NCBI RefSeq assembly: GCF_022808775.1
Contig: NZ_JAKZLA010000004.1
Span: 310,001 to 374,000, forward strand
DNA length: 64,000 nucleotides
Direction of reading: 5' to 3'
Origin: Geothrix terrae
Lineage (GTDB): Bacteria; Acidobacteriota; Holophagae; Holophagales; Holophagaceae
Within the stretch, counting starts at the first letter, position 1. The number at the start of each line of letters is the position of its first letter. The translations under genes and the position numbers were made by a program. The notes below the pieces were generated by a model that did no database searches, had not been told where the DNA came from, and saw only the letters and a program-made list of their open reading frames with translations. This document shows positions 40,217-45,664 of this stretch, in pieces.

Positions 40217-40798
40217 ATGGCCGCGTTCGTCACCCAGCCCGCACCCGATTTCAAGGCCGATGCCCTGGTCAACGGCGAGTTCAAGCAGATCTCGCTGTCC
40301 GACTACAAGGGCAAGAAGGTCGTCCTCTTCTTCTACCCCCTCGACTTCACCTTCGTCTGCCCCACGGAGATCCTGGCCTTCGCCGACGCCCTCAAGGAGT
40401 TCGAGGCCCGCAACACCCAGGTCATCGGCGTGAGCGTGGACTCCAAGTTCAGCCACCACGCCTGGGTCAACACCCCCCGCAAGGAGGGCGGCATCCAGGG
40501 CGTGACCTTCCCCCTGGTGTCCGACCTGAACAAGACCATCGCCCAGGACTACAACGTGCTGCTGCCCGCCGGCATCGCCCTGCGCGGCCTGTTCATCGTG
40601 AACAAGGAGGGCATCCTCAAGCACATCACCGTGAACCACAACGACCTGGGCCGCAGCGTGGAGGAGGTCCTCCGTCTCCTCGACGCCATCGACTTCACCG
40701 AAGAGCACGGCGAAGTCTGCCCCGCCAACTGGCACAAGGGCGAGAAGGCCATGAAACCGACCTTCGATGGGCTCAAGGCCTACGCTGCCACTAAGTAG
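40217..40798 (+). CDS. Typical 2-Cys peroxiredoxin (AhpC/TSA family)
   Basis: A 193-residue peroxidase that reduces hydrogen peroxide and organic hydroperoxides. The peroxidatic Cys48 is in FYPLDFTFVCPTEILAF and the resolving Cys168 in GEVCPANWHKG, so it works as a homodimer with an intersubunit disulfide, reduced by thioredoxin or AhpF/AhpD-like partners. The ATG after TGGAGGCTTC begins MAAFVTQPAPDF, the normal family N-terminus. The ~95-base leader includes the IscR-like site at its 5' end. A hairpin follows the stop, and beyond it lies a second copy of the gene's tail. Confidence 0.96.
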   Translation: MAAFVTQPAPDFKADALVNGEFKQISLSDYKGKKVVLFFYPLDFTFVCPTEILAFADALKEFEARNTQVIGVSVDSKFSHHAWVNTPRKEGGIQGVTFPLVSDLNKTIAQDYNVLLPAGIALRGLFIVNKEGILKHITVNHNDLGRSVEEVLRLLDAIDFTEEHGEVCPANWHKGEKAMKPTFDGLKAYAATK

Positions 40799-40818
40799 AC
40801 AGGCAGAGCACGCACGAA

Positions 40819-40840
40819 GCGGGCGCCGAAAGGCGCCCGC
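40819..40840 (+). terminator. Hairpin terminator of the peroxiredoxin gene
   Basis: GCGGGCGCC-GAAA-GGCGCCCGC is a perfect 9-bp stem capped by a GNRA tetraloop, 20 bases after the stop codon. There is no T-tract. It corresponds in position to the longer hairpin at 41028-41061 in the second copy of this 3' region. Confidence 0.6.
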
Positions 40841-40968: not shown

Positions 40969-41013
40969 AAGCCGACCTTCGACGGGCTGAAGGCCTACGC
41001 CTCCGCCAAGTAG
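40969..41013 (+). pseudogene. Remnant C-terminus of a second peroxiredoxin gene
   Basis: Codons here read KPTFDGLKAYASAK-stop, against KPTFDGLKAYAATK-stop at the end of the intact gene. The similarity continues 29 bases past the stop into the hairpin, 62 of 74 bases in all (40754-40827 versus 40969-41042) without gaps. Most coding differences are synonymous, so the copy seems to have diverged while still under protein-level selection. Nothing upstream in its frame encodes the rest of a peroxiredoxin. Confidence 0.7.
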
Positions 41014-41027
41014 GACGGCAGAGCATG

Positions 41028-41061
41028 CACGAAGGGGGCGCCTTGCGGCGCCCCCTTCGTG
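41028..41061 (+). terminator. Strong hairpin, terminator of the lost peroxiredoxin copy
   Basis: CACGAAGGGGGCGCC-TTGC-GGCGCCCCCTTCGTG is a perfect 15-bp stem with a 4-base loop. It resembles the serC terminator (CACAAAAGGGGCGCC arms), which suggests a common terminator design in this genome. It also faces the end of the convergent small-protein operon and could serve both strands. Confidence 0.65.
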
Positions 41062-41120: not shown

Positions 41121-41306
41121 TCAAGGGTGAATCGGTCTGTGGCCCTCGGCTCCCTGGAACGGGGCGGGTCCCGCCGACAGATTCAATCGCGTGGCCGTTC
41201 CCTGGGGATCTTCCCGCCTGGCTTTCGCCCGCCGGGAGACGGCCTGCACGACAAAGTCCGTGCCGACGAAGGCGAGGATCAGGAACAGGACGAGCAGCAT
41301 GGTCAT
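41121..41306 (-). CDS. Single-span microprotein, last gene of the orphan redox operon
   Basis: A 61-residue protein with one N-terminal span (TMLLVLFLILAFVGTDFVVQAV) followed directly by a basic stretch (SRRAKARRED), so the C-terminus should be cytoplasmic. GGAGG lies six bases before the ATG, supporting translation. I do not recognise it. It follows the 52-residue microprotein by 15 bp on the same strand as the NrfD-like and ferredoxin genes. By analogy with CcoQ or CydX it may be an accessory subunit, but that is inference. Confidence 0.6.
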   Translation of the reverse strand: MTMLLVLFLILAFVGTDFVVQAVSRRAKARREDPQGTATRLNLSAGPAPFQGAEGHRPIHP

Positions 41307-41321
41307 GGCTGGCCTCCGGAT

Positions 41322-41480
41322 CTAGTGTTTGCGGTGTGATTCCCTGCGCTGAAGGACGAACTCACGGATCGCCTCGCCGCAGATCCAGGCGATCAGCACG
41401 AAGGCTGCGATTCCGAGCGCGCTGTTCGTGATGTTCAACATGAGCGTTTCTGGGTTCTTCCAATTGGCCAAATCGAACAT
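41322..41480 (-). CDS. Single-span microprotein next to the NrfD-like subunit
   Basis: A 52-residue protein, MFDLANWKNPET followed by a span (LNITNSALGIAAFVLIAWICGEAI) and a basic tail (REFVLQRRESHRKH), an N-out/C-in type. A near-perfect CAGGAGG seven bases before the ATG marks it as a real, well-translated gene. It lies 39 bp after the NrfD-like gene. Unrecognised; it could stabilise the membrane complex or contribute a quinone-site helix. An earlier in-frame start 39 bases upstream has no ribosome-binding site. Confidence 0.65.
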   Translation of the reverse strand: MFDLANWKNPETLMLNITNSALGIAAFVLIAWICGEAIREFVLQRRESHRKH

Positions 41481-41519
41481 GTAGACCTCCTGTAGGACAT
41501 TCACTGAGGGGAACTCCAC

Positions 41520-42722
41520 TCACCGGGACTCCAGGTCCCCGCCTTCACGGGAGATGAAGATGGGTTCCGGCCGCCCGGTCACGACCTCCTTTCGAGGGCG
41601 TGGGCCGGCCACCATGGGCTCGAAGATCGGCAGGTGCTTGACGATGAAGGAGAAGGCACTGAACCCGATCGCCGTGATGCCGAGCGTGATGAACACCTCG
41701 ATCAGGGACGGGAAGTAGGTCTGCGCGGGGTAGTGCTCCAGCCCGGTGATCGCGGTATTCATCCGGTTGAAGGCGAACCCGACCACCACCAGCAGGGTCG
41801 CGGCATACAGCCCCCGCCGCGAGGTCCGGACCCTTTCCATCAGCAGCATCGCGAACGGGATGACGAAGCCGATCAGCAGCTCCGCGTAGAACGCGAGGCT
41901 GTAATAGGTGAGGGCCGTCAACTCGCGCAACGCCCCCCTGGTCAGAAGATCCTGGACCCGGACGACGACGTACACGGCCAGCGCGACGGCGATGATCTTG
42001 GCCAAGTTGGCGCGGAGCGGCGTGGGAAGGAGGTCGCGCCCTCCGCGGGCGAAGATCAGGGATTCGAGGATGACCATCGAGATCCCCGACGCGATGCAGG
42101 AGATGAAGAAGAGGACTGGCAGCAGCGGCGTGTACCAGAGCGCGTGCAAGCGGTTCGGGACGATCAGGTACAGCGAGCCGAACGAGGACTGGTGCAGGGT
42201 GGACAGCAGCACTCCGAAGATCATGAGCGGCAGCGAGATGGCGTGAATCCACTTGATCGGCGAAACGATATTCAATTTTTCGAGGACGATCGGAGCGAAC
42301 TCCAGGGAGAGGACCGTGGTGTACAACATGAGACACCAGCTGATCTCGCACATCACCGAGTGCGGATTCCACATGACCAGGGGATGCCAGAAATGGTCCG
42401 GGCGGCCGAGGTCGATGATGAGAACCAGCACCACCAGCAGGTACCCGATGAAGGCCGTCAGGATCGCGGGTCGCACGATGGGCTCGTACTCCTTGGCGTG
42501 GAACAGGTTGACAGCAGCCACGATGGTGAAGCCCGAGGCGGCGAGTCCGATCCCGAGGAAGTCGAAGCCGATCCAGAGCCCCCACGGGAACTCATCGCTT
42601 AGGTTCGTGGTGGCGCCGAGTCCGTAGTTGAACCGGGCGAAGGCCGCCATGGCCCCGGCCAGGATCAGGGTGGTGGCGATGGGGTGCCATCCGGTGATAC
42701 GTGGCAGACCTGGGATCTTCAT
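41520..42722 (-). CDS. NrfD/HybB-family integral membrane quinone oxidoreductase subunit
   Basis: A 400-residue protein with about ten spans, of the HybB type. It begins GWHPIATTLILAGAMAAFARFNYGLGATTNLSDEFPWGLWIGFDFLGIGLAASGFTIVAAV, containing the Gly/Phe-rich region conserved near the quinone site. Later segments include LIIDLGRPDHFWHPLVMWNPHSVMCEISWCLMLY with the family's RPD motif and YAELLIGFVIPFAMLL. It has no heme ligands of its own. It overlaps the ferredoxin gene upstream by 4 bp (ATGA), so they form a complex. HybB normally moves electrons between hydrogenase and menaquinone, but no hydrogenase is here. Confidence 0.9.
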   Translation of the reverse strand: MKIPGLPRITGWHPIATTLILAGAMAAFARFNYGLGATTNLSDEFPWGLWIGFDFLGIGLAASGFTIVAAVNLFHAKEYEPIVRPAILTAFIGYLLVVLVLIIDLGRPDHFWHPLVMWNPHSVMCEISWCLMLYTTVLSLEFAPIVLEKLNIVSPIKWIHAISLPLMIFGVLLSTLHQSSFGSLYLIVPNRLHALWYTPLLPVLFFISCIASGISMVILESLIFARGGRDLLPTPLRANLAKIIAVALAVYVVVRVQDLLTRGALRELTALTYYSLAFYAELLIGFVIPFAMLLMERVRTSRRGLYAATLLVVVGFAFNRMNTAITGLEHYPAQTYFPSLIEVFITLGITAIGFSAFSFIVKHLPIFEPMVAGPRPRKEVVTGRPEPIFISREGGDLESR

Positions 42723-43492
42723 GGCTTATCCTCGGGCGGGCGGGTCGGGTCCTTCTTCTGGGAGGCCTCGAAGGCCTGGACTTTGGCGCGTCGGTTGGTG
42801 ATCCACCAGACACCGCCGAGCAGGACCCCTCCCACGGAAAGCACATTGGGAACCTTGGAAAGGGCGCTCATGGTCAACATGGGCATGGGCGTCTTCCCCA
42901 TCCGGGAATCGAAGCCCAGTTGCTCGAACGGAACCGGGCTTAGGTAGAACATGGATGTGCCGCCAACATCATCCTTCCCGTAGATCCTGTGAACGAACTT
43001 GGCCGGCTCGGCGTTGATCCGGCGGGCCGCCTCGACCAGCAGTTCCTCGCGGTCGCCGAACTGGGTCGCCCCGGTGGGGCAGGCTTCGGCGCAGGCGGGC
43101 TGAAGCCCCCTGGCCAGCCTGGACGCGCAGAACTTGCACTTCTGAATGCGAGGCTTGGTGCTGCTCCATTCGTATTTCGGGACGTGGAAGGGGCAGGCCT
43201 GCAGGCAATAACGGCAACCGATGCATTTCTCGGCATCGTAAGCCACGGGGCCGGCTTCCGTCTTGCTGAGAGCGCCCACGGGGCAGACGGACACGCACGT
43301 GGGCACATCGCAGTGCTGGCACATGCGGCGCACGTACAGGTCGTTGTACTTGTCCAGAGCCGTGTAGGCGGTCAAGGACAGGTACTTTTCTTCGCCAGGG
43401 GGAAGCCGGTTCTCTTCCTTGCAGGCGCCCTGGCAGGCGTTGCACCCGACACATAGGGTCAGGTCAATTAGCATGGCTTTCTTCTGACTCAT
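42719..43492 (-). CDS. Four-cluster [4Fe-4S] ferredoxin subunit with C-terminal membrane anchor (HybA-like)
   Basis: A 257-residue electron-transfer subunit. Four cysteine sets are visible: CVGCNACQGAC (residues 14-24), CQHCDVPTCVSVC, CIGCRYCLQAC and CKFC...CAEAC. A span near the C-terminus (VPNVLSVGGVLLGGVWWITNRR) anchors it, as in HybA. Unlike HybA, it has no Tat signal: the first cysteine is only 14 residues from the start, so the protein probably faces the cytoplasm. It would pass electrons between a soluble partner and the NrfD-like subunit. The catalytic partner is not in the window. A sigma-54-like promoter lies about 80 bp upstream. Confidence 0.9.
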   Translation of the reverse strand: MSQKKAMLIDLTLCVGCNACQGACKEENRLPPGEEKYLSLTAYTALDKYNDLYVRRMCQHCDVPTCVSVCPVGALSKTEAGPVAYDAEKCIGCRYCLQACPFHVPKYEWSSTKPRIQKCKFCASRLARGLQPACAEACPTGATQFGDREELLVEAARRINAEPAKFVHRIYGKDDVGGTSMFYLSPVPFEQLGFDSRMGKTPMPMLTMSALSKVPNVLSVGGVLLGGVWWITNRRAKVQAFEASQKKDPTRPPEDKP

Positions 43493-43862
43493 GGTCTCAG
43501 CCCATCCATCAGGATGAAAAATTTTTTATTTCTTGATTCCATAGGATATTGGCCACATTCCCACTGGCTATAGTCAAGTCCCATGCCAGAGCGGAGGAAC
43601 GATCGCGCATTATTCATCTGTTTTAATGATTAACCTTAAATTACGGATGTCATCCAACTCAGACCCAGGCCGTGCCCCACCCGCCACGCCAGGACGCGGA
43701 ACCGTCAAATGCGACGGATGCAGGCTTGGATTGGGACTTGATGGGTCCTTGAACAGTTCGTAAAGACTCGATGTGGAATTTCGGGATTCGCGGGATTGCG
43801 AAGGGAAAAGTCCTACATTGATTGATGACCGGTTGGTATTTAACAAATTGTCGGGGGCTGTA
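43493..43862. other. Long divergent regulatory region between redox operon and sigma-54 activator
   Basis: This 370-bp gap contains no credible gene. It is AT-richer than its surroundings near both ends (a run of T/A around 43517-43532, and TTTTAATGATTAACC around 43621) and holds the sigma-54-like promoter of the ferredoxin gene. Activator sites would be expected between about 43600 and 43750, but I find no convincing repeated motif there. Confidence 0.6.
43573..43588 (-). promoter_or_regulatory. Sigma-54-like promoter of the FeS/NrfD operon
   Basis: On the minus strand TGGCATG-GGAC-TTGAC keeps GG at -24 and TTG before -12, but the -12 dinucleotide is GA rather than GC. It lies about 80 bp before the ferredoxin start codon. 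The same 11 fixed bases occur at 45649-45664. The adjacent, divergent gene encodes a complete sigma-54 activator, which strengthens the call. Confidence 0.55.
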
Positions 43863-45506
43863 ATGTCTATGCACCACGGACCTTACGCATTCCATTCCCG
43901 CCAGACCTCCGGAGTCCGTTTTCGTTTCGACCCAGTTCAAGGCCGGAGGCACCGGTCCCTCGCGGCCCTCGTGTCCGAACTGCTCCTGAAGCGGACTGAA
44001 ATGAATGCCATTCTCGACACGACTCCAAACGCCGTCTGCATCCTGTCCAAGGACGGGGTCACCCGGTGCAATCCCGCTGCCCTCCGGATGTTTGGTGCCA
44101 CCTCCCTCGATGAGCTTCGGGAAACCTTCGGAAGGAATGTGGAGGGGTTCACCCTTCGATGGCCAGGCAGCCAGTTCCCCCTCCGCGAGGAGGAGCGCCC
44201 GCTCACACGCGCCCTCTCGGGGGAACGGTTGACCGAAATTGTTCTGGCCACCCACGCTGGGACCGGCGATGAAATCATCCTCCGGATCACGGCCGCGCCC
44301 ATTCTGAACATGGGCCGCATCATCGGTGCCGTGGGCGTCCACTCGGATATCACCTGGGGAAGGCGGGTGGGAGTTCCCCCTGCCCCATCTGGCCAGGAGC
44401 CGCTGATGGGGAGCGGGCGGCCAGGCCAACCCACGCACCCGCTCTCGAAGGAACAGGCACTCCGGGAACAGGCGGAAGCAGAACTCCACAGGGCTCACAC
44501 GGAGATCCAGGAGCTGAAGAAGCATCTTCAGGCGGGGCACGCGTACCTGTTCCAGGAGACCAACCGCACCTACAACTTCGGTGAGGTGATCGGACAAAGC
44601 CGCTGCCTGGAGGACGTTTTCTACCGGGTCGAAGCCGTGGCACCGCAGGATTCGACGGTGCTGCTGTTGGGCGAGACGGGAACGGGCAAAGGACTGGTGG
44701 CCCGCGCCATCCACAGCAGGAGCCTGCGCAAGCACCGCCCCCTCATCACCGTCAACTGCACAGCCCTGCCCGGCAACCTGATTGAAAGCGAGCTCTTCGG
44801 GCGCGAGAAGGGCGCCTTCACGGGGGCCAGTTCCCAGCAGCTGGGCCGATTCGAACTGGCCGACAAGGGCACCATCCTCCTGGACGAGATTGGCGATCTG
44901 CCTTTCGAGCTGCAGGCCAAACTGCTGCACGTCATCCAGGAAGGTGAGTTCAGCCGCCTGGGCAGCGCAAAGACGGTGAAGGTCGATGTCCGCATCATCG
45001 CGGCCACGAACCGGGACCTCTACGAGGAGATCCGGCTGGGCCGCTTCCGGGAGGATCTGTTCTACCGGCTCAACATCTTTCCCATCACCGTGCCCCCCCT
45101 GCGGGAGCGCAAAGAGGACATCCCCCTGCTCGTCGAGTATTTTCTTGATAAATTCAACCGCAAGCTTGGGAAAAACATCCGAATGGTCACCAACGGCACC
45201 ATGGATGATCTCATGGCCCACTCCTGGCCCGGCAATGTGCGGGAGCTGGAGAGCGTCATCGAGAGGGCCGTGATCATCTCCAAGGGCACGACCTTGCAGG
45301 TGCTGGATCATTTCGAGGCCCCCTCCCTGGCCGGGCCGCAGGATGAAGGGAAGCCGCTGGTCGATCTGGAGCGCGACTACATCGATCAGGTGCTGCGGAA
45401 GACCAACTGGAGGATCGAGGGCAGCAACGGGGCGGCCCGCATCCTCGGCCTGAATCCGAGCACCCTCCGCGGCCGGATGCGGAAGGAGGGCATCCACCGC
45501 CCCTGA
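43863..45506 (+). CDS. Sigma-54-dependent transcriptional activator, PAS-AAA+-Fis
   Basis: A 547-residue enhancer-binding protein. A PAS domain occupies about residues 45-160 (LDTTPNAVCILSKDGVTRCNPAALRMFGATSLDEL), followed by a Gly/Pro-rich linker, a short coiled coil and the AAA+ domain. All key elements are intact: Walker A LGETGTGKGLVARAIH, the sigma-54 contact loop GAFTGA, Walker B TILLDEIGDLP and the arginine-rich PPLRERKEDIPLL. The C-terminus is a Fis HTH (NWRIEGSNGAARILGLNPSTLRGRM). The ATG giving MSMHHGPYAF is preceded by GGGGGCTG. It is divergent from the FeS/NrfD operon and probably switches it on in response to a redox or ligand cue at the PAS domain. Confidence 0.93.
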   Translation: MSMHHGPYAFHSRQTSGVRFRFDPVQGRRHRSLAALVSELLLKRTEMNAILDTTPNAVCILSKDGVTRCNPAALRMFGATSLDELRETFGRNVEGFTLRWPGSQFPLREEERPLTRALSGERLTEIVLATHAGTGDEIILRITAAPILNMGRIIGAVGVHSDITWGRRVGVPPAPSGQEPLMGSGRPGQPTHPLSKEQALREQAEAELHRAHTEIQELKKHLQAGHAYLFQETNRTYNFGEVIGQSRCLEDVFYRVEAVAPQDSTVLLLGETGTGKGLVARAIHSRSLRKHRPLITVNCTALPGNLIESELFGREKGAFTGASSQQLGRFELADKGTILLDEIGDLPFELQAKLLHVIQEGEFSRLGSAKTVKVDVRIIAATNRDLYEEIRLGRFREDLFYRLNIFPITVPPLRERKEDIPLLVEYFLDKFNRKLGKNIRMVTNGTMDDLMAHSWPGNVRELESVIERAVIISKGTTLQVLDHFEAPSLAGPQDEGKPLVDLERDYIDQVLRKTNWRIEGSNGAARILGLNPSTLRGRMRKEGIHRP

Positions 45507-45648
45507 CCAGGCGGAGGCCCGTCGCATTTGGCGAATCCGCACCATGGCGCGGTGGGTCACGCCAGGATTTCGGCTGTGCCAGCAGGCATGGGTCGATCAA
45601 GCTGTACATCTATAACAATTAAGATTAATTTTTTATCTTTACATTGTC

Positions 45649-45664
45649 TGGCATGTGATTTGAC
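45649..45664 (+). promoter_or_regulatory. Sigma-54-like promoter of the coiled-coil gene
   Basis: TGGCATG-TGAT-TTGAC matches the minus-strand element at 43573-43588 at every non-spacer position. It stands about 80 bp before the start of the coiled-coil gene, as the other does before the ferredoxin gene. An AT-rich stretch just upstream (45610-45640) could serve as a bend or IHF site. Confidence 0.55.

Follow-up and report, generated by a model that had tools for sequence, protein, structure and literature searches.

Two single-span microproteins that end a redox operon of Geothrix terrae are, judged from the conservation of their sequences, real genes, and the new element of the present analysis is the sequence likeness of one of them to the membrane anchor of GcvH and response-regulator proteins that are linked to FeS-NrfD operons. 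The proteins, for which the working names SmpA and SmpB were coined, lie in a 64,000-nucleotide stretch of the 3.43-Mb G. terrae genome (hereafter, the window), and the open reading frames of that stretch give the minus-strand order FeS, NrfD, SmpA, SmpB (Table 1). It is likely that both serve as subunits of a quinone module. More specifically, the reading put forward here, with moderate confidence, is that SmpA and SmpB are accessory subunits of the FeS-NrfD pair and that SmpB would be an anchor helix left after the loss of signalling domains.

The operon is bounded by a divergent PAS-sigma54 regulator gene on one side and by a convergent peroxiredoxin gene on the other, with 39 bp between the NrfD stop and the SmpA start and 15 bp between the SmpA stop and the SmpB start. 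An earlier note on this DNA had described both frames, their single spans, these spacings and a strong Shine-Dalgarno sequence ahead of each, and all were verified: one hydrophobic span is found in each protein (KD19 2.01 for SmpA and 2.48 for SmpB), and the Shine-Dalgarno sequences read AGGAGGT and GGAGG, respectively. Among the 269 ATG readings of 40-75 aa in the 64-kb window, eight have a KD19 of at least 1.9 and 14 have a strong Shine-Dalgarno sequence; SmpA and SmpB are the only ones to combine the two. Neither window protein matched any Pfam or NCBIfam family at E up to 1, and the weak Pfam matches of related microproteins (E 0.006-2.1), which were below cut-off and pointed to unrelated families, were disregarded. 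The basic tails are predicted, by the positive-inside rule, to be cytoplasmic.

Table 1. Features of the FeS-NrfD operon and its upstream region (positions are those of the window).
Feature	Position	Strand	Remarks
SmpA, single-span microprotein, 52 aa	41322..41480	-	ATG and 52 aa in 20/20 loci
SmpB, single-span microprotein, 61 aa	41121..41306	-	core of ~31 aa, Asp17 within span
SmpA Shine-Dalgarno AGGAGGT	41485..41491	-	GGAGG kept in 20/20 orthologues
SmpB Shine-Dalgarno GGAGG	41313..41317	-	GGAG in 17/20 orthologues, G-rich stretch in other 3
NrfD-family quinone subunit, HmcC/HybB-like	41520..42722	-	Pfam PF03916, E 1.2e-26
4Fe-4S protein, HmcB/HybA-like	42719..43492	-	Pfam and NCBIfam
sigma54-type promoter element TGGCATGGGACTTGA	43574..43588	-	block conserved in 12 aligned regions (of 20)
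palindrome CCGTCGCATTTGACGG, probable activator site	43702..43717	-	near-invariant in 12 aligned regions (of 20)
divergent PAS + sigma54-activator regulator	43773..45506	+	Pfam PAS, Sigma54_activat, HTH_8; in 20/20 loci

SmpB is carried by 20 of the 47 Geothrix genus genomes and is missing from 27, and FeS, NrfD, SmpA, SmpB and the divergent regulator were all located in each of the 20 loci (20 genomes). The NrfD-SmpA gap is 39-41 nt in 18 of these loci and 1 nt in two, the SmpA-SmpB gap is 11-16 nt, and SmpB starts with ATG throughout; its length ranges from 31 to 61 aa, and one copy (L044) is cut by a contig end. Both genes are under purifying selection, which for SmpB is limited to the first ~31 residues: pooled over 19 distinct sequences of each gene, pN/pS comes to 0.49 in SmpA and to 0.36 in SmpB codons 1-31, relative to 0.82-1.60 in a shifted-frame control, and a crude ungapped comparison of 15 sequences gives 0.91 for the SmpB tail. 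The conservation in close relatives that the earlier note had proposed to look for is found in these 20 genomes, where both frames are kept under selection. Asp17 of SmpB is present in all 20, and the residues of SmpA that are invariant among 14 sequences include L13, L15, N16, T18, N19, L22, G23 and E40. The nearest named relative of the window's genome is Geothrix paludis SG195, whose NrfD is identical to that of genome G025, which shares 99.5% identity with the window NrfD.

The likeness of SmpB to an anchor is seen in sister operons of the same genus. At 12 genus loci (L052-L055, L067-L073 and L100), the genes after a sister FeS-NrfD pair encode a histidine kinase and a response regulator; the one regulator scanned with Pfam has the architecture span-REC-GcvH, and SmpB matches the span with which the REC-GcvH regulator of the sister operons begins. 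An SmpB profile matches 45 of the 47 genus genomes at E up to 0.1, and below E 0.001 its matches are exclusively SmpB (21 places in 20 genomes) or the start of the regulator. Eight further matches elsewhere in the genus genomes (E 0.046-0.089) were taken as chance, and no match was found in two genomes, G011 (72% complete) and G017 (93%). A second SmpB copy, at the start of a contig (G021:C177), is seen as a short frame only.

The same picture emerges from a model that leaves out Geothrix and its family. The NrfD loci described below contain 98 GcvH frames, 71 with an N-terminal span and 27 without, and model A6 consists of 40 anchors hand-chosen among the 71, also leaving out most near-duplicates and the upstream second copies; neither the choice of rows nor that of starts used Asp17. 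Over the 47 genus genomes at E up to 0.1, A6 gives 67 matches in 45 genomes, comprising 21 SmpB places, 46 regulator starts and nothing else. SmpB is found at that threshold in all 20 SmpB-bearing genomes, and the window SmpB itself reaches an E of only 0.003. When the 46 regulator places were read, 44 had REC and GcvH after the anchor and two run into a contig end (one of them partway through REC, the other just after the anchor, behind a kinase); all 46 follow or carry HK, REC or GcvH. Anchor column 17 is Asp in 38 of the 40 anchors and Glu and Asn in the remaining two, and no other acidic residue occurs in columns 1-20. SmpB fits the pattern M[TV]xLLV...D17..V followed by basic residues, and it is here placed in a class defined in this analysis, the NrfD-associated membrane-anchor helix; as the anchor is short and hydrophobic, the homology rests on 31-34 residues.

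Anchors of this kind also occur outside the genus. Over 297 genomes of the phylum, some of which may contain A6 member sequences, the model gives 64 matches in 47 genomes. Thirty of these matches were fetched (8 of them from the genus), of which 22 lie within a GcvH frame and 8 are small ORFs that adjoin FeS, NrfD, GcvH, REC or SmpA. Stand-alone anchors in other lineages are represented by phylum families f2 and f35 and by the named records L134 and L121.

The window NrfD scores 278.5 bits against the NCBIfam HmcC model (cut-off 550) and 277.5 bits against that of the Ni/Fe-hydrogenase cytochrome b subunit (cut-off 450), which we take to be HybB, and the best NCBIfam models of the FeS protein are HmcB and HybA, both below their cut-offs. 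The FeS protein has a C-terminal hydrophobic segment with basic residues after it, and no N-terminal signal peptide was seen; among 74 FeS proteins, a Tat signal was found on one, the product of a second, minus-strand FeS gene in L140. A PDB search with the NrfD profile returned 0 matches at 1e-3, and no PDB relatives of the anchor or of SmpA were found. Section 12 of PMC10924467 describes HmcD as a small hydrophobic peptide accompanying HmcC in the Hmc operon, and a table row of PMC10920352 gives its mass as 5.8. The remark in the earlier note that no such description was known for this NrfD type therefore fails, since the closest models are HmcC and HmcB, and HmcD accompanies HmcC. A term search of a review of NrfD-like subunits finds HybB, and not HmcC or HmcD.

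It is conceivable, if unlikely, that SmpA and SmpB are ordinary structural subunits of the CydX/HmcD kind, never linked to signalling, and that the anchor likeness reflects packing against NrfD. The company of HmcD with HmcC speaks for this, as do the short proteins CydX, CydY and CydZ encoded in cytochrome bd operons (PMC4325964) and the variable SmpB tail, which shows that it is mainly the helix that matters. SmpA occupies an HmcD-like position, adjoining an NrfD whose best model is HmcC (below cut-off). However, the HmcD model NF045712 matches neither window protein at E up to 1 and, at E up to 10, gave no hit to one orthologue of each, so HmcD membership was rejected; the same model does detect a positive control at 25.8 bits, below its 34-bit cut-off. 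This control, from another acidobacterial family, is a 49-aa HmcD-like single-span ORF flanked by the genes for a HybB-type NrfD and a hydrogenase large subunit (L064:7470-7619). The Geothrix operon, which contains only FeS, NrfD, SmpA and SmpB, also differs from the Desulfovibrio Hmc operon, whose HmcB and HmcC are the nearest named kin of the FeS-NrfD pair, in lacking the HmcA cytochrome, HmcE and HmcF. Likewise, the cytochrome bd enzyme is unrelated, and the SmpB helix, unlike the CydX-type proteins, resembles the anchor of larger GcvH/REC proteins. An outside anchor model also singles out the SmpB helix among all frames of 47 genomes, which would hardly be expected from packing alone. The suggestion of the earlier note that such small spans are often subunits of quinone enzymes holds insofar as conserved single spans are tied to NrfD; it is incomplete in that SmpB is homologous to the anchor of GcvH/response-regulator proteins, which changes its likely meaning.

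Two further systems invite comparison. In the tail-anchored FeS and HybB-like modules of PMC10924467 (section 12), too, an FeS protein whose C-terminal segment is hydrophobic is encoded immediately upstream of a HybB/NrfD-like protein; as that section presents them, they carry Tat signals, or have none but are paired with a Tat-bearing Fe-Fe hydrogenase, and their partners are a cytochrome, Hmc or a hydrogenase, whereas the Geothrix module shows no signal peptide, has relatives whose partners are GcvH and a kinase, and includes microproteins in the operon. The TMH1-DsrOhPh-tetrahaem locus of cable bacteria (PMC13047784) similarly encodes a small membrane protein near an NrfD-family protein, but its NrfD is DsrP-like and its partner is a tetraheme protein, a distinction drawn from the published description.

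A second alternative, which appears distinctly improbable, is that SmpB might be a regulatory decoy that occupies the anchor site on NrfD in competition with the REC-GcvH regulator of the sister operon. All 20 SmpB genomes do carry the anchored regulator as well, and the helices of SmpB and the regulator are alike; but the SmpB operon includes an FeS-NrfD pair of its own, and the window genome's two NrfD proteins share only 48% identity, so there is no need to invoke cross-docking. Finally, the idea that neither protein is functional, SmpB being the remnant, in decay, of a lost response regulator and SmpA an ORF conserved by chance, would agree with the nearly free SmpB tail (pN/pS 0.91) and its variable length, but is hardly credible against the constant length, ATG and Shine-Dalgarno sequence of SmpA and an SmpB core with Asp17 in 20/20 genomes.

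A scan with the NrfD alignment gave more matches than the 80 loci examined here, which come from Acidobacteriota, Ignavibacteriota/Bacteroidota, KSB1, Gemmatimonadota, Myxococcota, Methylomirabilota, Riflebacteria, Planctomycetota and others. FeS adjoins NrfD in 78 of the 80 listed loci, which typically also encode GcvH (58 loci), a kinase (55), REC (53) and a sigma54 AAA domain (48); without the 15 Holophagales loci, the counts among the remaining 65 are 52, 48, 47 and 40, respectively. GcvH stands directly upstream of FeS in 45 of the 69 listed loci with enough upstream DNA. GcvH is missing from 22 of the 80 and the kinase from 25, absences that stem partly from short contigs and are uncertain because many contigs are short. 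The narrower predecessor of A6, based largely on SmpB sequences, detected the anchor at only 15 of the 65 listed loci outside Holophagales.

Five GcvH frames tested matched Pfam GCV_H above cut-off, as did a tested kinase and regulator HisKA, Sigma54_activat and Response_reg. The anchored proteins share REC (PF00072) and GCV_H (PF01597) domains, scored above the Pfam cut-offs, with response regulators and GcvH; unlike these, they are membrane-anchored, and at the position that we take to be that of the lipoyl-lysine, Lys is found in only 6 of 75 GcvH-like domains (those with a recognisable [A/S]P..G motif). Among the 58 kinases with at least 230 residues ahead of the kinase domain, that region contains both CxxCH and Cx4CH in 53, Cx4CH alone in two and neither motif in three.

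From these observations, a mechanism can be proposed in which SmpA and SmpB would be single-span accessory subunits of a membrane-bound FeS-NrfD quinone module, with SmpB as a membrane anchor that stands alone. The helix bearing Asp17 carries, in relatives, either a GcvH-like domain that is not lipoylated or a response regulator of the REC-GcvH type, encoded together with FeS-NrfD and often with a sensor kinase containing two putative heme-binding motifs; in the Geothrix operon, the REC and GcvH parts may have been lost and the helix kept. The helices would dock on NrfD, Asp17 might act as a contact or proton residue, and the wider module could sense redox state. More tentatively, these components may form a redox-signalling complex that crosses phyla, consisting of FeS-NrfD, GcvH or REC-GcvH docked by an Asp-bearing helix, a kinase with two heme motifs and a sigma54 response regulator, in which SmpB and other stand-alone anchors would be interchangeable docking helices without signalling cargo.

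A quick NrfD tree bears on how SmpB arose. All 28 SmpAB rows, some of which represent one genome drawn from two collections, form one clade (SH-aLRT 100), nested in a 35-row clade (support 96) whose other seven rows (six distinct) come with a kinase and an anchored REC-GcvH protein. SmpB is absent from the four genomes (G004, G019, G028 and G133) in which such an operon, 75-77% identical, was read. The tree leaves the order of the SmpAB and HK-REC-GcvH operons inside the 35-row clade unresolved; a history in which REC and GcvH were lost while the helix was retained would suit it, the direction of change being our inference.

An SmpA profile matches 18 of the 297 phylum genomes, namely 10 among the 21 sampled from the genus and 8 among the 276 others, and G308 carries a second copy; alignment A4 consists of 13 hand-picked SmpA-like sequences. 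Eight of these nine further SmpA places adjoin a kinase with an NtrC-type partner, GcvH genes or FeS-NrfD (in L088 and L091, NrfD is distant, at 28% identity), and the ninth, L101, lies at a contig end without such context. SmpA is found in 9 of the 80 listed NrfD loci, eight from Holophagaceae and only one from outside Holophagales.

The upstream region suggests how the operon is controlled. When 12 of the 20 upstream regions were aligned, the palindrome CCGTCGCATTTGACGG and the sigma54-like element TGGCATGGGACTTGA were the two common blocks, the latter conserved as a TGG[CT]A[CT]xxxA[AC]TTGA-like sequence. Its -12 part reads TTGA; TTGC is usual there in what we take to be the sigma54 consensus, and the strict TGGC-N8-TGC pattern had no match upstream of FeS in the 20 loci. 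With up to 2 mismatches allowed, the 3.43-Mb genome contains just one match to a 19-base version of the palindrome, and a sigma70/terminator scan did no better than shuffles. The divergent PAS-sigma54 activator probably turns on the operon from this candidate sigma54 promoter; Pfam found no receiver domain in that regulator, whose true start may lie inside the called frame. Imperfect second copies of the palindrome (45519-45534) and of the sigma54-like element (45649-45663, plus strand), with 2 mismatches each, closely follow the regulator gene on its downstream side, which may mean that the regulator acts on a second target as well.

To our knowledge, the reporting of respiratory-chain redox state to gene regulation is known for few systems. 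If the anchor does dock signalling domains on the NrfD module, it would physically couple electron transfer to two-component signalling across many little-studied phyla, and SmpA and SmpB would be small, testable handles on the docking site, reduced to one helix and one buried Asp. The alignments also supply models for microproteins that gene callers may overlook. A literature search that covered few subscription papers, and is thus weak evidence that the system is undescribed, found no publication joining NrfD and GcvH, none combining HybB, glycine cleavage, response regulator and histidine kinase, and none combining NrfD, histidine kinase, sigma-54 and Acidobacteri. In the parts available, PMC9386147 contains NrfD and glycine cleavage but shows no link between them, and a groundwater survey contains both Geothrix and NrfD.

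Several additional observations were made at these loci. Two to four tandem anchor microproteins with a FAQDGGxPVK-like tail precede FeS in L057, L059, L186, L189, L191 and L194, and a DGG motif recurs close to the end in many TM-GcvH proteins and in distant SmpA relatives. Single-span TMYDGG ORFs of 84-92 aa lie just ahead of the TM-GcvH gene at L140:1802-2056, L141:497-775 and L156:6224-6484; they resemble the anchors but were not counted among them, as the anchor model did not match them at an E threshold of 0.01. A second, unanchored GcvH-like protein, with the cysteine-rich N-terminus C[VI]WMxAG...KLC...C, follows NrfD at L150:9193-10014 and similar places, and in L094:8989-10527 and L102, NrfD is fused C-terminally to a region with three CxxCH heme motifs. 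Finally, in the window itself, the 3' end of the peroxiredoxin gene is partly duplicated 215 bp downstream (40755-40836 versus 40970-41051, plus strand; 66 of 82 bases alike), the duplicated stretch comprising the last peroxiredoxin codons and the sequence beyond them.
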